A stretch of DNA of 64,000 nucleotides from Crocinitomix algicola (GTDB lineage Bacteria; Bacteroidota; Bacteroidia; Flavobacteriales_D; Crocinitomicaceae), in NCBI RefSeq assembly GCF_001661595.2, contig NZ_LYPF02000007.1, forward strand, positions 186,001 to 250,000, in the 5' to 3' direction. Numbering within the stretch: position 1 is the stretch's first letter; each line of letters starts with the position of its first letter. A program made the position numbers and the translations under genes. The notes under the pieces are model-generated. The model was not told the origin of the DNA, did no database searches, and saw only the letters and a list, made by a program, of their open reading frames with translations. This document shows positions 16,160 through 38,577 of this stretch, one piece after another.

Positions 16160-18874
16160 TTACTCTTCTAAATTACTGCTCAACCACTGTTTCATGCGTT
16201 CTAAAGGAATGTTTTTTGCATTTGCTAGTCGCTCTACCTGATCAAGTTTAATTTTTCCAACACCAAAATATTGGGCCTCAGGGTGGGCAAAATACCATCC
16301 GCTTACCGATGCGGTAGGGTACATGGCCATTGAGTCAGTAAGACTAACCCCCGTTATTTCCGTTGCATTTAATAATTCAAATAAACCAGGTTTTTCGGTG
16401 TGGTCAGGGTTAGCAGGGTATCCTGGGGCAGGCCTAATTCCCCTATATTTTTCTTTAATTAAATCCTCTTTCGATAATTGCTCCTTTTCGTATCCCCAAT
16501 AATCTTTTCGTACAAGCTCATGTAAACGTTCGGCAAACGCTTCTGCAAGTCGATCAGCCAAAGCTTTTAAAAGTATACTATGATAGTCATCATGGTCGGC
16601 TTCGTACTTCGCCAATTGTTCTTCAATTCCTTGACCCGCTGTCACCACAAATCCACCAATATAATCTTTAATTCCACTCTCCTTTGGTGCGATAAAATCG
16701 GCCACACATATATTGCTTGCTTTTGCGGCTTTTTTAATTTGTTGCCTTAAGCCGTATTGAGTATAAGCAACTTCAGTGCGTTCTTCGTTTTCGTATATTT
16801 CAATATCATCGTCATTTACTGAATTTGCAGGCCATATTCCAACAACAGCATTGGCAATAATCCATTTTTCGTTTATGATTTTGTCCAACATTTGATTGGC
16901 ATCTTCAAACAGTTTCGTAGCTTCCGCACCCATGTCTGGATGTTCCAAAATTTGGGGGTATTTTGCCCTTAGTTCCCATGTATGAAAAAACGGCGTCCAA
17001 TCAATATAGCCTCTTAATTCGCTTAAATCATAATCTTTTAAAGCAGTTGTTCCTATTTTTTTAGGTTGCGCAATGTCTTCAATTTTCCAATTTATTTTCA
17101 ATTTATTCTCTCTGGCTTCATTGAGCGATAGGAACTTTTTGAACCCTTTTTTCTTGGCATAATTCGTTCTAACCTTATCATATTCAGCTTGAATGCTTTC
17201 AACAAATTGAGGTTTTTTATCACTTAATAACTCACTTACTACGGTCACCGATCGAGAAGCATCTAAAACATGAACAGTTTGTCCCTTGGTATAATGTTGA
17301 TCAATTTTTACAGCCGTGTGTACTTTAGAAGTTGTTGCTCCACCAATTAATAAAGGTAAATTCATGCCGGCATTTTCCATTTCTTTAGCCACATGCACCA
17401 TTTCGTCCAATGACGGCGTAATTAACCCACTTAATCCAATAATATCGACTTGGTGTTCTTGAGCGGCTTCCAAAATTTTGTTGCCCGGTACCATTACCCC
17501 CAAATCAATAATATCATAATTATTACATCCTAAAACAACGCCCACAATATTTTTACCAATATCATGTACGTCTCCTTTTACTGTGGCTAGCAACACTTTT
17601 CCTTTCGAGCGACTTTCAGTTTTTGAAGCTTCAATATAGGGGAGTAAATAGGCAACCGCTTTCTTCATCACACGAGCAGATTTAACCACTTGGGGCAAAA
17701 ACATTTTTCCTGCTCCAAACAAATCACCCACGATATTCATTCCAATCATTAAATGTCCTTCAATTACCTCGATTGGTTCAGCGACTTCATTTCGAGCTGT
17801 TTCAACATCTTCTTCAATATAATCAGCAATACCTTTTACCAAGGCATGAGAAATACGATCCTGTAGCGGCGCTTCTCTCCATGATAAATCTATCGTTTTG
17901 GCTTTGCTTTCACCGGTTACCGTTTCAGCAAAAGCCAATAGACGCTCAGTAGCATCAGATCTTCTATTGAGTAAAACATCCTCGACATGGAGTAGTAAGT
18001 CTTTAGGAATGTCATCATATACCTCAAGCATCGAAGGGTTCACAATTCCCATATCCAATCCTTCCTTTATGGCGTGAAAAAGAAAAGCGGAATGCATCGC
18101 TTCACGTACTACATTATTTCCTCTAAATGAAAAAGAAACATTACTTATTCCTCCACTTACATGGGCTCCCGGTAAGTTTTCTCTAATCCATCTTGTCGCT
18201 TGAAAAAAATCTAGCGCATTTAGTTTATGTTCATCCATGCCCGTTGCAACTGGGAAAACGTTTGGATCAAAAATAATGTCTTGAGGAGGGAAATTAACTT
18301 CATCAACAAGTATACGATATGAGCGTTCACAAATGTCAACTCTCCTTTGGTAGGTGTCGGCCTGTCCATCCTCGTCAAAGGCCATAACCACAACTGCAGC
18401 TCCGTATTGGCGAATTTTTTTCGCTTCCGTAACAAATTTTTCTTTGCCTTCCTTTAAACTGATTGAGTTAACGACACATTTTCCTTGAACGCATTGCAGA
18501 CCTGCCTCTACAATTTCCCACTTTGATGAGTCTATCATAATCGGTACGCGAGAAATATCAGGTTCAGATGCGATTAAATTCAAGAATTTAACCATAGCCT
18601 CTTTCCCATCAATTAAACCATCGTCCATATTGATGTCGATGATTTGTGCACCGCCCTCCACTTGGTTTCTTGCGATTGACAATGCTTCGTCATATTCCTC
18701 TTCCTTGATCAATCGTAAAAATTTTCGCGAACCTGCTACATTAGTGCGTTCACCAATATTGATGAAATTAACTTCAGGACTAACTTCTAAAGGTTCTAAT
18801 CCACTTAATTTCATGTTCGGAAGATGATTCCACTTATACTCGTATTTTCCTTTGTAATCAGGATGTAAACTCAT
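16160..18874 (-). CDS. metH: Methionine synthase, folate/B12/activation part of split MetH
   Basis: The protein has 904 residues and lacks the homocysteine-binding module, which is a separate gene upstream. A pterin-binding domain (about 30-290; [22 protein letters not shown]) is followed by the cap and B12-binding domains (about 330-570), whose base-off motif [17 protein letters not shown] supplies the cobalamin-ligating His. The SAM-binding reactivation domain (about 590-900) carries [15 protein letters not shown]. It moves the methyl group from methyltetrahydrofolate via cob(I)alamin to homocysteine in the cytoplasm. It is the last gene of the SAM-riboswitch operon, 48 bases after the QueF-like gene. 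No metF follows. Confidence 0.95.
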
Positions 18875-18922: not shown

Positions 18923-19357
18923 TTACATCACTACACTCCAGTTGTCATCACCTGCTTGACCGCCCCAATCTTTGAAACGTTCATCACCTCCGCGGGCAGC
19001 CCAGTCTGAGTCGATTGTAAGTTTTGAGCTAATGCCTCCACGTGGATTACAGATCATCATTAATCTTAGACGCTCTGGTTCATACACTTCCATTAAATGA
19101 TCATAAAAAATATTGATCAATCGTTCGTATGAAACCACAATGTCTCTTAAATGATAAGCGTATTGTTTTAAAGATTTTAGCTCAATTATTTTTCCTTTTG
19201 GATAAAAGGTTAGAAATATGGTTGCAAAATCTGGTTGTTCCTGAACTCCTAAGAAAGTGAATTCTGGAATTTTAACTTTAATTTCATAAGCTTCTTTGGT
19301 CGGGTTTGGTAAAGCGACCAAAATACTCTTGTCTATTTCTTTGTACAATTTAGGCAT
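18923..19357 (-). CDS. QueF-like T-fold protein lacking the catalytic Cys and His
   Basis: The protein has 144 residues. The segment QPDFATIFLTFYPKGKIIEL followed by KSLKQYAYHLRD clearly matches the QueF (NADPH-dependent preQ0 reductase) family, including its ExKSLKxY motif and the conserved Asp in QPDFAT. The nucleophilic Cys that QueF carries in FTSLCP before QPDFAT is absent (EFTFLGVQEQPDF here). The FHE motif is changed to SYE, losing the His but keeping the Glu. It should therefore not reduce preQ0 by the known thioimide route. It lies 4 bases after the MetH N-terminal gene and 48 bases before the MetH C-terminal gene, inside a SAM-controlled operon. A role in binding a pterin or folate for MetH is plausible but is inference. 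Confidence 0.8.
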   Translation of the reverse strand: MPKLYKEIDKSILVALPNPTKEAYEIKVKIPEFTFLGVQEQPDFATIFLTFYPKGKIIELKSLKQYAYHLRDIVVSYERLINIFYDHLMEVYEPERLRLMMICNPRGGISSKLTIDSDWAARGGDERFKDWGGQAGDDNWSVVM

Positions 19358-19361
19358 GTTA

Positions 19362-20357
19362 TTAATTTTTCGTATTTAATTGGTTATATTTTTCTGCTAG
19401 TAAGGCCATCTCTTTGATATGGTCAGGTGTTGTACCGCAACAGCCTCCAATGATATTCACCAGTTTCTCTTCTAAGAAAGTGTCAATTTGACCAGCCATC
19501 ATTTCGGGACTCTCATCATATTCCCCCATTTCATTAGGAAGGCCAGCATTTGGATGAGCACTTATATAAAAAGGTGCTTTTTGCTTTAAAACCTGTAAAT
19601 AAGGTCTTAACGCATCTGCACCCAAAGCACAATTTAAGCCAATGCTTAACAAATCCGCATGCTGCATAGAGATAAGAAATGCCTCTGTGGTTTGACCTGA
19701 TAATGTCCTGCCACTGGCATCCGTAATTGTTCCACTTACCATGATGGGTAACTCGGTCTTTAGTTCGGTTTGTACTTCTTCAATAGCAAAAAGAGCGGCC
19801 TTCGCATTTAAAGTATCAAATATGGTTTCGACCAGTAATAAGTCTGCTCCTCCTTCAATTAATCCCCTCACTTGTTCAGAATAGGCTATGACCATTTTAT
19901 CAAATGTGGTATTTCTAAAACCAGGGTCATTCACGTCTGGTGAAATCGATAAGGTCATATTCGTTGGTCCTATGGAGCCGGCTACGAATCGTGGTTTTGC
20001 AGGGTTTTTTGCTGTGAACTCTTCACATACTTCTTTCGCTATTTTCGCGCCATAATAATTGATATCATAAGCGGCTTTTTCTAAATTGTAGTCAGCTTGT
20101 GCTATCGTCGTTCCGCTAAAAGTATTCGTCTCTATTATGTCAGCGCCAGCCTCTAGGTATTCCGCATGAATGGCCTTAATAACATCCGGACGTGTTAAGA
20201 CCAACAGGTCGTTATTGCCTTTTAATGAGTCGGGATGATTTTCAAACCAGCCTTTTCTGAAGTCTTCTTCCTCCAGTTTATAGCGCTGAATCATAGTTCC
20301 CATTGCTCCATCGAGAACCAGGATACGCGATTTTAATATTTCTCTAATGTCATTCAT
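19362..20357 (-). CDS. metH: Homocysteine S-methyltransferase module of split MetH
   Basis: The protein has 331 residues and corresponds to the N-terminal module of Met[27 protein letters not shown] at the start, then [23 protein letters not shown] and the zinc ligands in LNCALGAD (about residue 243) and [11 protein letters not shown] (about 306). It binds and activates homocysteine through Zn2+ for methylation by the B12-bound partner, the larger MetH protein two genes downstream. The split form is common in Bacteroidota. It is the first gene of the operon, downstream of a SAM-I riboswitch. Confidence 0.93.
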
Positions 20358-20413
20358 AGTTGAACGATTGTAGAGTGGACCGGGAAGTTTTGAAATGATT
20401 TTTAAAAGTTTCG

Positions 20414-20522
20414 CTTATATCGTTAATGCAAATTTGCTTAACAGGAATTGGCACCTTGTCCTCTTGAATGAGTTCGGTTGCCAAGGTTTCAAAGGGCCGG
20501 TCCCTCCACCTTTCTTTATAAG
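20414..20522 (-). promoter_or_regulatory. SAM-I (S-box) riboswitch upstream of metH operon
   Basis: Read on the minus strand, the element shows the S-box core: AAAGGTGGAGGGAC, GAAACC, TTGGCAACC and GGTGCCAATTCC. P1 is CTTATA (20522-20517) paired with TATAAG (20419-20414). P3 has CCTTG/CAAGG, and P4 is GTTAA-GCAAA/TTTGC-TTAAC. No clear intrinsic terminator is visible in the 56 bases before the ATG at 20357, so control may act on translation or through a weak terminator. Confidence 0.9.
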
Positions 20523-20545
20523 TGTAATTAAATTAAGAACTGGGA

Positions 20546-34863: not shown

Positions 34864-34896
34864 CATTGTCGGTTGCAGTTCTTGTGATTGTAATTG

Positions 34897-35010
34897 ATTT
34901 ATAAAGAAGAGGTGAGAGACAGGCTCTATGACCCTCTGGCAACCATTTACGGTAAGTGAAAAGGTGCCAATTCCTGCTTCTAAAGGATGTTCCTTTAGAG
35001 ATATATAAAT
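34897..35010 (+). promoter_or_regulatory. SAM-I (S-box) riboswitch upstream of metX
   Basis: The S-box core is clear: AGAGGTGAGAGAC, ATGACC, TGGCAACC and GGTGCCAATTCCTG. P1 is ATTTATA (34897-34903) with TATAAAT (35004-35010). P4 is the perfect hairpin CTAAAGGA/TCCTTTAG (34980-34998). The aptamer is followed by a short Cys/Met-rich ORF rather than a plain terminator. Confidence 0.9.
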
Positions 35011-35021
35011 GAATTGCAGAA

Positions 35022-35114
35022 ATGACAACATCAAAATTTAAACAACAGTTAAGTAAGTCAAAATTATCAAATCATCAACATTGTTGTTGTATGACTTGCT
35101 GTTGTATGCATTAA
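35022..35114 (+). CDS. Cys/Met-rich leader peptide, 30 aa
   Basis: An ATG 12 bases after the SAM-I aptamer opens a 30-codon frame that ends HQHCCCMTCCCMH followed by TAA. The first 17 residues are polar and Lys/Gln/Ser-rich. The peptide has six Cys and two Met residues in the last ten positions (plus the initiator), far above chance, just before the sulfur-amino-acid operon metX-hom-metZ. It is not in the frame of metX (ATG 35194) and ends 79 bases before it. Small hairpins follow the stop (TTTCC 35121-35125 / GGAAA 35131-35135 and CCAC 35149-35152 / GTGG 35158-35161), but there is no strong terminator. It may act as an attenuator sensing charged Cys or Met tRNA, or as a thiol peptide; both are inference. 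Confidence 0.6.
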   Translation: MTTSKFKQQLSKSKLSNHQHCCCMTCCCMH

Positions 35115-35193
35115 TCCATCTTTCCTTTCTGGAAATCGTTTAACCTAGCCACTTTCCGTGGTGTGGGAATTAGCTTGTTTTATTTAAATTATT

Positions 35194-36225
35194 ATGAATC
35201 AGTATTTTACAGTTGAAAAAAATGTTGAGCTCGAATCAGGGCAGAAGATTGAAAATGTTCGAATAGCTTATCGCGATACCGGTCCTGAATCGGGAGCTAA
35301 AGTGGTTTGGGTCTGTCATGCTTTAACTGGTGATGCAAATGTTTTTGAATGGTGGTCTGGTTTGTTTGGGTGTGGACAATTGTTTGATCCTAAAGAATAT
35401 CGTGTAATATCAGCAAATATTTTAGGTTCTTGTTATGGTTCAACAGGTCCTCAAGATTATGATTGTCCCAATGAATTTCCTTCTATAACTATAAGGGATA
35501 TTGTTCGTTTTCATAAAATATTGGCAGATGAATTAGGTGTTGAACGCATCTCGATACTAATTGGTGGGTCAATTGGTGGGCAGCAAGCACTGGAATGGGC
35601 TTGCATTGAAAGCGATAGGATTGAGCAACTTATATTAATTGCAACGAATGCTGTCCATTCTTCTTTTGGTCGTGGCTTCAATGAAGTGCAAAGACTGGCC
35701 TTAAAGGCGGATTCAACTTTTGGCTTAGTCAATGGAGGAAAAGCAGGGTTAAAAGCAGCTCGGTCAATGGCGATGATCTCTTATCGTTCTTATCAAGATT
35801 TTCAACTCAGACAAAAGGATGTTGATTCGGAATTAGAGTCTTTTAAAGCAGTGACTTATCTTAATTATCTCGGGGAAAAATTTGTAGAACGTTTTCATCC
35901 AAATGCTTACTTCATACTCACCAAAGCCATGGATAGTCATAATGTGGCTCGAGATAGAGGGGGTATAGAAGAAGTTTTAGGTCGAATCACTTGTAAGACG
36001 TTAGTAATTGGTGTTGATACGGATTTGCTTTTTCCAATTGAGGAGCAACAACTAATAGCAAACTGTATTCCCAATGCAGAGTTTGGGGTGATAAAGTCTA
36101 TTCATGGTCACGATGCTTTTCTCATAGAGTATGAACAACTGAATTTTTTAATACACGAATATTTATTTAATGGCTTTAAAAAGTTTAAGCCAACAACTTT
36201 AAAAAAAAGAACAAATGTCAAATAA
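35194..36225 (+). CDS. metX: Homoserine O-acetyltransferase
   Basis: The protein has 343 residues and the alpha/beta-hydrolase fold of MetX: NVRIAYRDTG, WVCHALTGDANVFEWW, SCYGSTGP, the nucleophile in GGSIGGQQALEW, Asp in GVDTDLLFP and His in SIHGHDAFL. It activates homoserine with acetyl-CoA (or succinyl-CoA in some members) for sulfur incorporation. It is the first full gene after the SAM-I riboswitch and the leader peptide. Its 3' end overlaps hom by 11 bases. Confidence 0.93.
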   Translation: MNQYFTVEKNVELESGQKIENVRIAYRDTGPESGAKVVWVCHALTGDANVFEWWSGLFGCGQLFDPKEYRVISANILGSCYGSTGPQDYDCPNEFPSITIRDIVRFHKILADELGVERISILIGGSIGGQQALEWACIESDRIEQLILIATNAVHSSFGRGFNEVQRLALKADSTFGLVNGGKAGLKAARSMAMISYRSYQDFQLRQKDVDSELESFKAVTYLNYLGEKFVERFHPNAYFILTKAMDSHNVARDRGGIEEVLGRITCKTLVIGVDTDLLFPIEEQQLIANCIPNAEFGVIKSIHGHDAFLIEYEQLNFLIHEYLFNGFKKFKPTTLKKRTNVK

Positions 36226-37420
36226 TTTAAAAATAGGTCTTTTTGGTTTTGGCTGTGTCGGAACCGGGTTATATAAGGTCTTAAATCAAAGTAGTTTATT
36301 AAGTGCTTCAATTGAAAAAATTGTCGTGAAAAATAAAAATAAACAACGTGAATTGTCGGCGGACAATTTTTCTTACGATCCTAATGTGATTTTAGATGAT
36401 CCTGAGATAAATTTAGTTGTTGAGTTGATTGATGATGCGGATGCTGCTTTCGAAATCGTTAAGACGGCTTTTCGTCGAGGGAAGAATGTGGTTTCTGCGA
36501 ATAAAAAATTAATTGCAGAGCATTTGGAGGAGTTATTGAAGCTTAGCGCAGAATTTAATGTGTCATTTTTATATGAAGCGGCCGTTTGTGGAAGTATTCC
36601 TGTGATAAGAAACCTGGAAGAATATTACAATAATGATAGTTTAACGGCTATAGAGGGAATTTGTAATGGTACGAGCAATTATATTCTGACTCGCATATCA
36701 AAGGAGTTAAAATCGTTTGATGAAATTCTTACTGATGCTCAAAATGCCGGCTTTGCCGAATCTGATCCAACATTGGATATTGATGGTTTCGATAGTAAAT
36801 ATAAACTCCAAATTTTACTGTTGCATACCTTTGGTATTCTTTCTCAGCCGAAAGAAGTGCTGAATATTGGGGTGCGTCATGTGAAGCAAGCAGATGTTTC
36901 GTTTGCTAAGGAGCGAGGGTTGAGGTTGCGATTGCTTTCTTATGGACGCCGGGTAGAAGACGAGGTAGTCGCTTTTGTAGCTCCTGTTTTTGTAGATGAA
37001 CTTAGTTTTTCATTTGATGTGAATTATGAGTTTAATGGTGTGTCTTTTGAAGCTTTGTTTTCGGATAAGCAGGTTTTTACGGGGAAGGGTGCTGGTAGTT
37101 TCCCTACAGCTTCGGCTGTTTTATCAGATGTTTCTGCTTTGCAATATGATTATCAATATGAATACAAGAAAAAGAACAGCACGCATTTAGGGCTTGCTAA
37201 AGATTTTAAAGTGAAAGTTTTTGTGTCTGCGAATGATCAATCGAGGTTGGCATTGTTTTCTTTTTTGTCTATAGAAGAAGAGTATCAGTCTGCTGGCTAC
37301 GCGTACAAAGTAGGATGGATAAATAGAAGTGATATTTCGCATGAGTTATATCGGGATAATCCAGATTTGTTCATTGCTTTTTACGGAAATAACCCTGTTG
37401 AATTAATTGGTACGAAATGA
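36215..37420 (+). CDS. hom: Homoserine dehydrogenase
   Basis: The protein has 401 residues. The Rossmann motif is GLFGFGCVGTGLY (near the start). The substrate region has EAAVCGSIPVIRNLEEYY, GICNGTSNYILT and FAESDPTLDIDGFDSKYKL. A C-terminal extension after about residue 325 may be ACT-like. It reduces aspartate semialdehyde to homoserine with NAD(P)H, giving the substrate of MetX. It is overlapped by metX at the start and overlaps metZ by 4 bases (ATGA), so the three are tightly coupled. Confidence 0.93.
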   Translation: MSNNLKIGLFGFGCVGTGLYKVLNQSSLLSASIEKIVVKNKNKQRELSADNFSYDPNVILDDPEINLVVELIDDADAAFEIVKTAFRRGKNVVSANKKLIAEHLEELLKLSAEFNVSFLYEAAVCGSIPVIRNLEEYYNNDSLTAIEGICNGTSNYILTRISKELKSFDEILTDAQNAGFAESDPTLDIDGFDSKYKLQILLLHTFGILSQPKEVLNIGVRHVKQADVSFAKERGLRLRLLSYGRRVEDEVVAFVAPVFVDELSFSFDVNYEFNGVSFEALFSDKQVFTGKGAGSFPTASAVLSDVSALQYDYQYEYKKKNSTHLGLAKDFKVKVFVSANDQSRLALFSFLSIEEEYQSAGYAYKVGWINRSDISHELYRDNPDLFIAFYGNNPVELIGTK

Positions 37421-38577
37421 GAAGAATAGAGACAAGATTGATTCGAAATCAATTAAACAGATCAGAGAATAGGGAGCATGCAGTGCCTTTGTATCTTACA
37501 TCAAGTTATACTTTTGAAAATGCGGATCAAATGGCGGATTTATTTAGTGGTCAGCAAGAAGGGTATGTTTATAGTCGGTATGCAAATCCAAATGTTACAG
37601 AATTTGGAGATAAAGTTGCTGATTTAGAAGGTGTAGAAGCTTCGTGGGTGACAGCTTCGGGAATGGCAGCCGTGTTTTCGACTTTTGGAGCATTGCTTTG
37701 TCAAGGTGATGAGGTGTTGGCTTGTCGTTCTGTTTTTGGTTCAACACACCAGTTGTTTGAACGTATTTTGCCCAAATGGGGAATTATTACGAATTATGTT
37801 GAATTTGACAAGGTTGACAAATGGGAAGAGTCAATTACGGATAAAACAAAGTTAATTTACTTGGAAACACCGACTAATCCGGGCGTGGATATTATTGATT
37901 TAGAGTCTGTGGGATTGTTAGCAAAGAAGCATGGACTTTTATTGATTGTGGATAACTGCTTTGCAACCCCGATTAATCAAAGGCCAGCCAAGTTTGGTGC
38001 TGATCTGGTGATTCATTCTGCAACCAAATACTTTGACGGTCAAGGTCGTGTAATGGGAGGGGTTGTTGTTGGTTCTAAAGTTTTGATGGATGAAATTCAG
38101 TCGTTTGCAAGGCATACTGGTCCTGCAATTTCTCCCTTTAACGCATGGGTGCTATCCAAGAGCTTGGAAACGTTACCAATTAGAATGGAGAAGCATAATC
38201 AAAATGCGTTATTACTTGCGAAAAAGTTGGAGCAACATCCCAAAGTGCAGAAGGTTAAATATCCGTTTTTACCCTCTCATCCCCAATTTGAAATTGCCCA
38301 AAAACAGATGAACGGCGGTGGCGGTATTCTAACCTTTGAAGTGCGCGGGGGGCTGTCTAAAGGAAAGCTGTTTCTTAATAGACTTAAGATGATTTCTTTA
38401 ACAGCAAATCTTGGTGATTCTCGGTCAATCGCGACGCATCCCGCAAGCACAACGCATTCGAAATTAACAGAAGAACAAAGGCAGGTCGTTGGAATTAGTT
38501 CGGGTTTAATTAGAATTTCAGTTGGTCTGGAACATATTGATGATATCTGGGAAGATATTGTGCAGGCTTTAGCCTAA
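37417..38577 (+). CDS. metZ: O-acyl-homoserine sulfhydrylase, PLP enzyme
   Basis: The protein has 386 residues and belongs to the Cys/Met-metabolism PLP family: GYVYSRYANPN, VTASGMAAVFSTF, LETPTNPG, VDNCFATP and the PLP-binding Lys in VIHSATKYFDGQGR. ATHPASTTHSKLT is also conserved. The YFDGQGR stretch is typical of MetZ/O-succinylhomoserine sulfhydrylase. It makes homocysteine directly from acyl-homoserine and sulfide, feeding the split MetH encoded at 16-20 kb. It is the last gene before a terminator. Confidence 0.92.
   Translation: MRRIETRLIRNQLNRSENREHAVPLYLTSSYTFENADQMADLFSGQQEGYVYSRYANPNVTEFGDKVADLEGVEASWVTASGMAAVFSTFGALLCQGDEVLACRSVFGSTHQLFERILPKWGIITNYVEFDKVDKWEESITDKTKLIYLETPTNPGVDIIDLESVGLLAKKHGLLLIVDNCFATPINQRPAKFGADLVIHSATKYFDGQGRVMGGVVVGSKVLMDEIQSFARHTGPAISPFNAWVLSKSLETLPIRMEKHNQNALLLAKKLEQHPKVQKVKYPFLPSHPQFEIAQKQMNGGGGILTFEVRGGLSKGKLFLNRLKMISLTANLGDSRSIATHPASTTHSKLTEEQRQVVGISSGLIRISVGLEHIDDIWEDIVQALA

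Follow-up and report, generated by a model that had tools for sequence, protein, structure and literature searches.

A QueF-like T-fold protein that lacks the catalytic cysteine of its family, encoded between the two halves of a split metH in Crocinitomix algicola, is, at a probability of roughly 0.64, a methionine-synthesis enzyme that replaces MetF; we predict it to be a flavin-free, NADPH-dependent methylene-tetrahydrofolate (methylene-THF) reductase. We refer to the Cys-less QueF-like family of this protein as QFL. QFL genes are conserved, occur in methionine contexts and often lie in genomes that lack MetF, and their products have kept one set of QueF residues and lost another. The proposed function, which rests on comparative genomics, is probably new.

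In the 64,000-nucleotide stretch of DNA that was analysed (the window), QFL occupies positions 18923–19357 of the minus strand and encodes 144 amino acids from an ATG start. It lies 4 bases after the gene for the homocysteine-binding module, or N part, of MetH (19362–20357, minus strand; 331 amino acids; PF02574 S-methyl_trans, 336 bits; NCBIfam metH, positions 2–314) and 48 bases before the gene for the folate, B12 and activation modules, or C part (16160–18874, minus strand; 904 amino acids; PF00809, PF02607, PF02310 and PF02965). A SAM-I (S-box) riboswitch (20412–20524, minus strand; RF00162, 81.4 bits, E = 1.3e-17) heads this metH_N–QFL–metH_C operon, and the first-pass annotation of the window had described the whole arrangement exactly. 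The C part scores 205.6 bits for Pterin_bind and 412 bits for Met_synt_B12 and has a B12-binding domain too (Pfam); because Pterin_bind is retained, MetH in this organism should need 5-methyl-THF. A second SAM-I riboswitch (34896–35011, plus strand; RF00162, 76.2 bits) heads a putative metX–hom–metY/B operon, read by eye (35194–38577, plus strand; open reading frames 35194–36225, 36215–37420 and 37417–38577), and the two riboswitches belong to one regulon. This metX–hom–metY/B operon (34896–38577 with its riboswitch) is of the type that houses QFL in Chitinophagaceae.

QueF (PF14489) is the sole Pfam family in the window protein (57.4 bits; cutoff 27.3), which has no sequence homology to PF02219 (MetF/MTHFR) and scores 82.1 bits against the NCBIfam equivalog TIGR03139, under its cutoff of 86.9. 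Roles in QueF have been assigned to Cys55, Asp62 and Glu97 and to the QueF motif, which binds NADPH, and the active-site Cys is a requirement of the family definition (PMC5372742). When 73 distinct QFL sequences were aligned with QueF, the column of the nucleophilic Cys (Cys55 in Bacillus subtilis) proved to be deleted, not substituted, in all 73; EFTSLCPxTGQPDF of QueF reads EFTFL-GVQEQPDF in QFL. The FHE motif reads SYE in every sequence, and the position of Cys99 holds Leu. The missing Cys before QPDFAT and the change of FHE to SYE, both picked out in the window protein by the first-pass annotation, are thus confirmed, and the loss of Cys and His is universal among the homologues (73/73). 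By contrast with these losses, the general acid Asp is retained as Asp43 in 100% of the 73 sequences and the substrate-anchoring Glu as Glu78 in 99%. The NADPH motif E(S/L)K(S/A)hK(L/Y)(Y/F/W) is present in the window protein as ELKSLKQY, departing at the seventh position alone (Q, not L/Y); across the 73 sequences E59, K64 and Y66 are found in 100% and K61 in 96%. QPDFA, an Arg and PRGGI are also kept, and IDSDWxxRGG and a C-terminal Trp are specific additions. An AlphaFold2 model (pLDDT 80.7, pTM 0.78) is informative on the fold: its closest solved structure is B. subtilis QueF (Z about 16, 30% identity), followed by QueF-L, FolE and FolB (Foldseek, VIA).

Among about 85,000 species genomes scanned, 62 QFL loci were found at 67–92% identity; their hosts belong to Bacteroidota and Gammaproteobacteria, with a few exceptions. 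QFL is rare across Bacteroidota, with one clear case among 395 genomes besides the window genome; it is present in 13 of 249 genomes of the window organism's order and in 15 of 298 of the Chitinophaga order. Searches of plasmid and phage collections for QFL gave ordinary QueF only, at 29–40% identity. Profile scores fall into two separate groups, with QFL at about 229 bits or above and the best QueF at 76 bits, and in a maximum-likelihood tree QFL forms one clade, parted from QueF by a fully supported branch (100/99). About 50 alignment columns are invariant across phyla, and dN/dS is about 0.03 against the congener G171. On these two results we reject a pseudogene, and the invariant columns show that the description of the protein as degenerate in the first-pass annotation was wrong.

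The connection with methionine synthesis that had been drawn from the window alone is borne out by QFL neighbourhoods elsewhere, where the linkage to metH recurs in several arrangements and is joined by metY/B–hom, Pterin_bind and SAM-riboswitch contexts. In the window organism's order, 13 of 13 QFL genes adjoin metH modules, and 12 of the 13 lie between both halves. The metH_N–QFL–metH_C order is found in two families of that order and also at Flammeovirgaceae, Cyclobacteriaceae and Marinoscillum loci, often behind SAM riboswitches. In the congener G232, the metH C half follows QFL and the upstream N module is only a 50-amino-acid trace; another contig of that genome (C126) holds a diverged homocysteine module (52% identity). 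Five gammaproteobacterial loci have QFL divergent from a single-chain metH. At a further locus (L092:2723–6417), a TonB receptor, a PduO-type cobalamin adenosyltransferase, DUF6580 and QFL form one run with metH opposite. Within the Chitinophaga order, QFL is divergent from a riboswitch-preceded metH at two loci and lies between a Cys/Met PLP enzyme (metY/metB) and homoserine dehydrogenase (hom) at five, with a SAM riboswitch detected at two of these five (L080 and L090); at one more locus a SAM riboswitch is directly followed by QFL and then by homoserine dehydrogenase. On a Marinimicrobia contig (L086:5104–6417), QFL comes about 20 bases after a lone Pterin_bind gene (285 amino acids), the product of which is possibly a free methyl-THF methyltransferase. 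QFL lies away from methionine genes in Chitinophaga proper and Aliikangiella, and the unlinked copies have no neighbour common to all (glyS, ribE, map/kptA, ferritin and selU are examples read by eye). Given the 62 loci, the dN/dS and the recurring metH_N–QFL–metH_C order, the association is not chance. At five loci in relatives, however, the split-metH junction, where insertions recur, hosts unrelated genes, read by eye as a DjlA-like J protein (twice), an S23-type four-helix protein (twice) and a fatty-acid desaturase, and metH linkage alone is therefore weak as proof of a role for QFL.

Because metH linkage is insufficient by itself and imine reduction resembles the chemistry of MetF, we searched the genomes for MetF, scored by PF02219 in family searches (a model that misses mycobacterial-type MTHFR; PMC7857596). 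The window genome (99.94% complete) has MetH, and PF02219 was not found in it. Used as a query, the MetF of a family member had no match in the window genome at E ≤ 10 and, again up to E = 10, no convincing match in the QFL genomes that lack MetF; it matched the congener G181 at 84%. Among 39 QFL genomes 23 lack MetF, against 4 of 35 QFL-free genomes, and none of those 4 has MetH; all 19 MetH-positive genomes of the QFL-free comparison sample have MetF. In the order set, where 64 of 249 genomes are MetF-free, MetH accompanies the absence of MetF in 11 of 11 genomes with QFL, against 7 of 53 without it, and the seven QFL-free exceptions are drafts of 170–720 contigs that are 80–96% complete. 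At a completeness of at least 97%, a figure that applies to order-set genomes and not to those reached via loci, the contrast becomes 9 of 9 against 0 of 12 (p = 3.4e-6), and counting the seven drafts weakens one test to p = 0.001, both p values being overstated since they treat relatives as independent. For metH-linked QFL the presence of MetH is partly trivial, because QFL lies in the metH operon; where QFL is unlinked to metH, 7 of 7 MetF-free genomes have MetH. The same pattern is seen between close relatives: the congener G181 has MetF, no QFL and directly adjoining metH halves, and the congeners G171 and G232 and the genome G000 have QFL and no MetF. Joint presence of QFL and loss of MetF extends over Crocinitomicaceae, a second family, a Cyclobacteriaceae MAG, the Chitinophaga order and Pleionea. 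The remaining 16 of the 39 QFL genomes retain MetF and so call for an explanation by redundancy or conditional use; QFL may have a partial or conditional part there, or another function.

The chemistry of QueF suggests how QFL could fill this gap. In QueF, a second NADPH is spent on reducing the imine intermediate (PMC5372742). This second half-reaction, in which hydride passes from NADPH to an imine, and the reduction of the methylene-THF iminium are steps of one kind, and neither needs the nucleophile. Loss of the Cys fits QFL as a reductase, because that residue serves nitrile activation only. We infer the substrate, cofactor, reaction and oligomer of QFL: 5,10-methylene-THF would bind in the T-fold pocket, the site of preQ0 in QueF, with Glu78 anchoring the pterin ring and Asp43 handling protonation, perhaps with Tyr77. 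Hydride would pass directly from NADPH on the QueF motif (ELKSLKxY), with no flavin, and the iminium form at N5=CH2 would be reduced to N5-CH3. The 5-methyl-THF product would be handed to the adjacent MetH, and SAM would repress the metH_N–QFL–metH_C operon through its riboswitch. It also appears reasonably probable that QFL constitutes a structurally new class of methylene-THF reductase, a QueF-derived T-fold that uses NADPH and no flavin, that arose by loss of the nitrile-activating Cys and that took over from MetF in several bacteroidotal and gammaproteobacterial lineages.

Known enzymes offer partial parallels. Type II QueF, the unimodular preQ0 nitrile reductase of B. subtilis (TIGR03139, PDB 4f8b/4fgc), has in common with QFL the T-fold at about 30% identity, the equivalents of Glu97 and Asp62, the NADPH motif and PRGGI. 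Unlike it, QFL has Cys55 deleted, Cys99 replaced by Leu and FHE by SYE, carries the extra C-terminal DSDWxxRGG and W motif, and has methionine instead of queuosine neighbours. The T-fold pterin enzymes FolE, FolB and PTPS, in which a pocket Glu holds the pterin or purine, belong to the same fold superfamily but show about 5–18% identity to QFL and carry out different chemistry. Archaeal QueF-Like (QueF-L, archaeosine synthase, PDB 5jyx) is likewise a QueF-derived T-fold with a changed reaction, that of QFL being predicted; there the Cys thioimide is kept and ammonia replaces NADPH (PMC5485725), whereas QFL has lost the Cys and kept the NADPH motif. MetF/MTHFR (PF02219) matches QFL in predicted reaction and pathway position and is complementary to it in phyletic pattern, but is a flavin-dependent TIM-barrel flavoprotein, to which QFL is unrelated in fold and sequence. 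Direct reduction of methylene-THF from a nicotinamide cofactor, independent of flavin, is known from the mycobacterial MTHFR Rv2172c (PMC8765232). Mycobacterial MTHFRs (Rv2172c, MSMEG_6596) use NADH and are not T-folds, unlike QFL with its predicted use of NADPH.

Several other readings bear on the same data. The MetF-free QFL genomes may hold another, unrelated methylene-THF reductase, diverged or mycobacterial-type and invisible to PF02219; the mycobacterial type, which that model leaves undetected, is distantly related to MetF and reported chiefly from Actinobacteria (PMC7857596). QFL might instead feed methyl groups to MetH by some other reaction, or repair oxidised folate (for example, by NADPH-dependent reduction of 5-methyl-dihydrofolate), with methyl-THF coming from uptake or another enzyme. 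The ligand class and cofactor motif would suit such a role, as would the fact that 16 genomes have kept both QFL and MetF. A repair enzyme, however, would not permit the loss of MetF, and the scheme demands a second, additional source of methyl-THF; we regard it as unlikely.

We give rather little credence to a non-catalytic partner of MetH, that is, a pterin- or B12-binding protein, chaperone or regulator that, for instance, passes methyl-THF between the split halves. The several forms of metH linkage, the loss of the catalytic Cys and the run at L092, where QFL follows the TonB receptor, the cobalamin adenosyltransferase and DUF6580 opposite metH, all agree with it. But it leaves the absence of MetF alongside QFL unexplained, QFL also occurs beside intact single-chain MetH and in metY–QFL–hom operons, and the NADPH motif, Asp and Glu are invariant. 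With these residues retained and a MetF gap that the gene fills, an enzyme is likelier than a mere binding partner. The first-pass annotation had proposed a pterin- or folate-binding partner, scaffold or regulator; a pterin or folate is indeed the most likely ligand, and a purely non-catalytic role is no longer the first choice.

It is very improbable that QFL supplies queuosine synthesis with preQ1 through chemistry that does without the Cys. The QueF fold and motifs of QFL would accord with it, as would TGT (tgt), which is present in nearly all genomes with or without QFL. Family searches of the window genome, however, found neither QueC nor a second QueF. A weak QueC match there (PF06508) is partial (5–61 of 210), lies within a long ORF and is not QueC. 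In Aliikangiella, Pleionea and Anaerophaga, QueC is present and an intact QueF stands separate from QFL, so that the intact copy sought in the window genome exists beside QFL elsewhere. Strong PF14489 matches in the 249-genome order set are QFL alone, with no Cys-bearing QueF among them (the remaining weak ones read as FolE by length and partial coverage); true QueF is therefore missing from the order regardless of QFL. Control by a SAM riboswitch, moreover, suits methionine and not queuosine. The earlier view that this is not a preQ0 reductase stands, and preQ1 synthesis by QFL is rejected in view of the Cys deletion, the absence of QueC and the coexisting true QueF. That QFL is merely hitch-hiking, or is in decay, at a site between the metH halves that tolerates insertions is an idea encouraged by the J protein, four-helix protein and desaturase found there in relatives, but it is barely conceivable given the dN/dS, the invariant columns across phyla, and the recurrence of QFL in other methionine operons and its tracking of MetF loss.

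If QFL is the predicted methylene-THF reductase, a central one-carbon step has a further, unrelated enzyme, and the missing step is supplied for MetH-bearing bacteria seemingly unable to make methyl-folate. A two-step nitrile reductase would then have become an imine/iminium reductase through deletion of its nucleophile, and many proteins likely to be automatically named 'preQ(1) synthase' would be misannotated. A literature search covering few subscription papers and no bioRxiv preprints found no paper that pairs QueF or the T-fold with MTHFR.

Two minor observations concern neighbouring pathways. The gene run at L092 hints at a possible part for DUF6580 in the use of B12. Most QFL-bearing Bacteroidota have TGT but lack QueC and a Cys-bearing QueF, and therefore probably salvage queuosine precursors or queuine.
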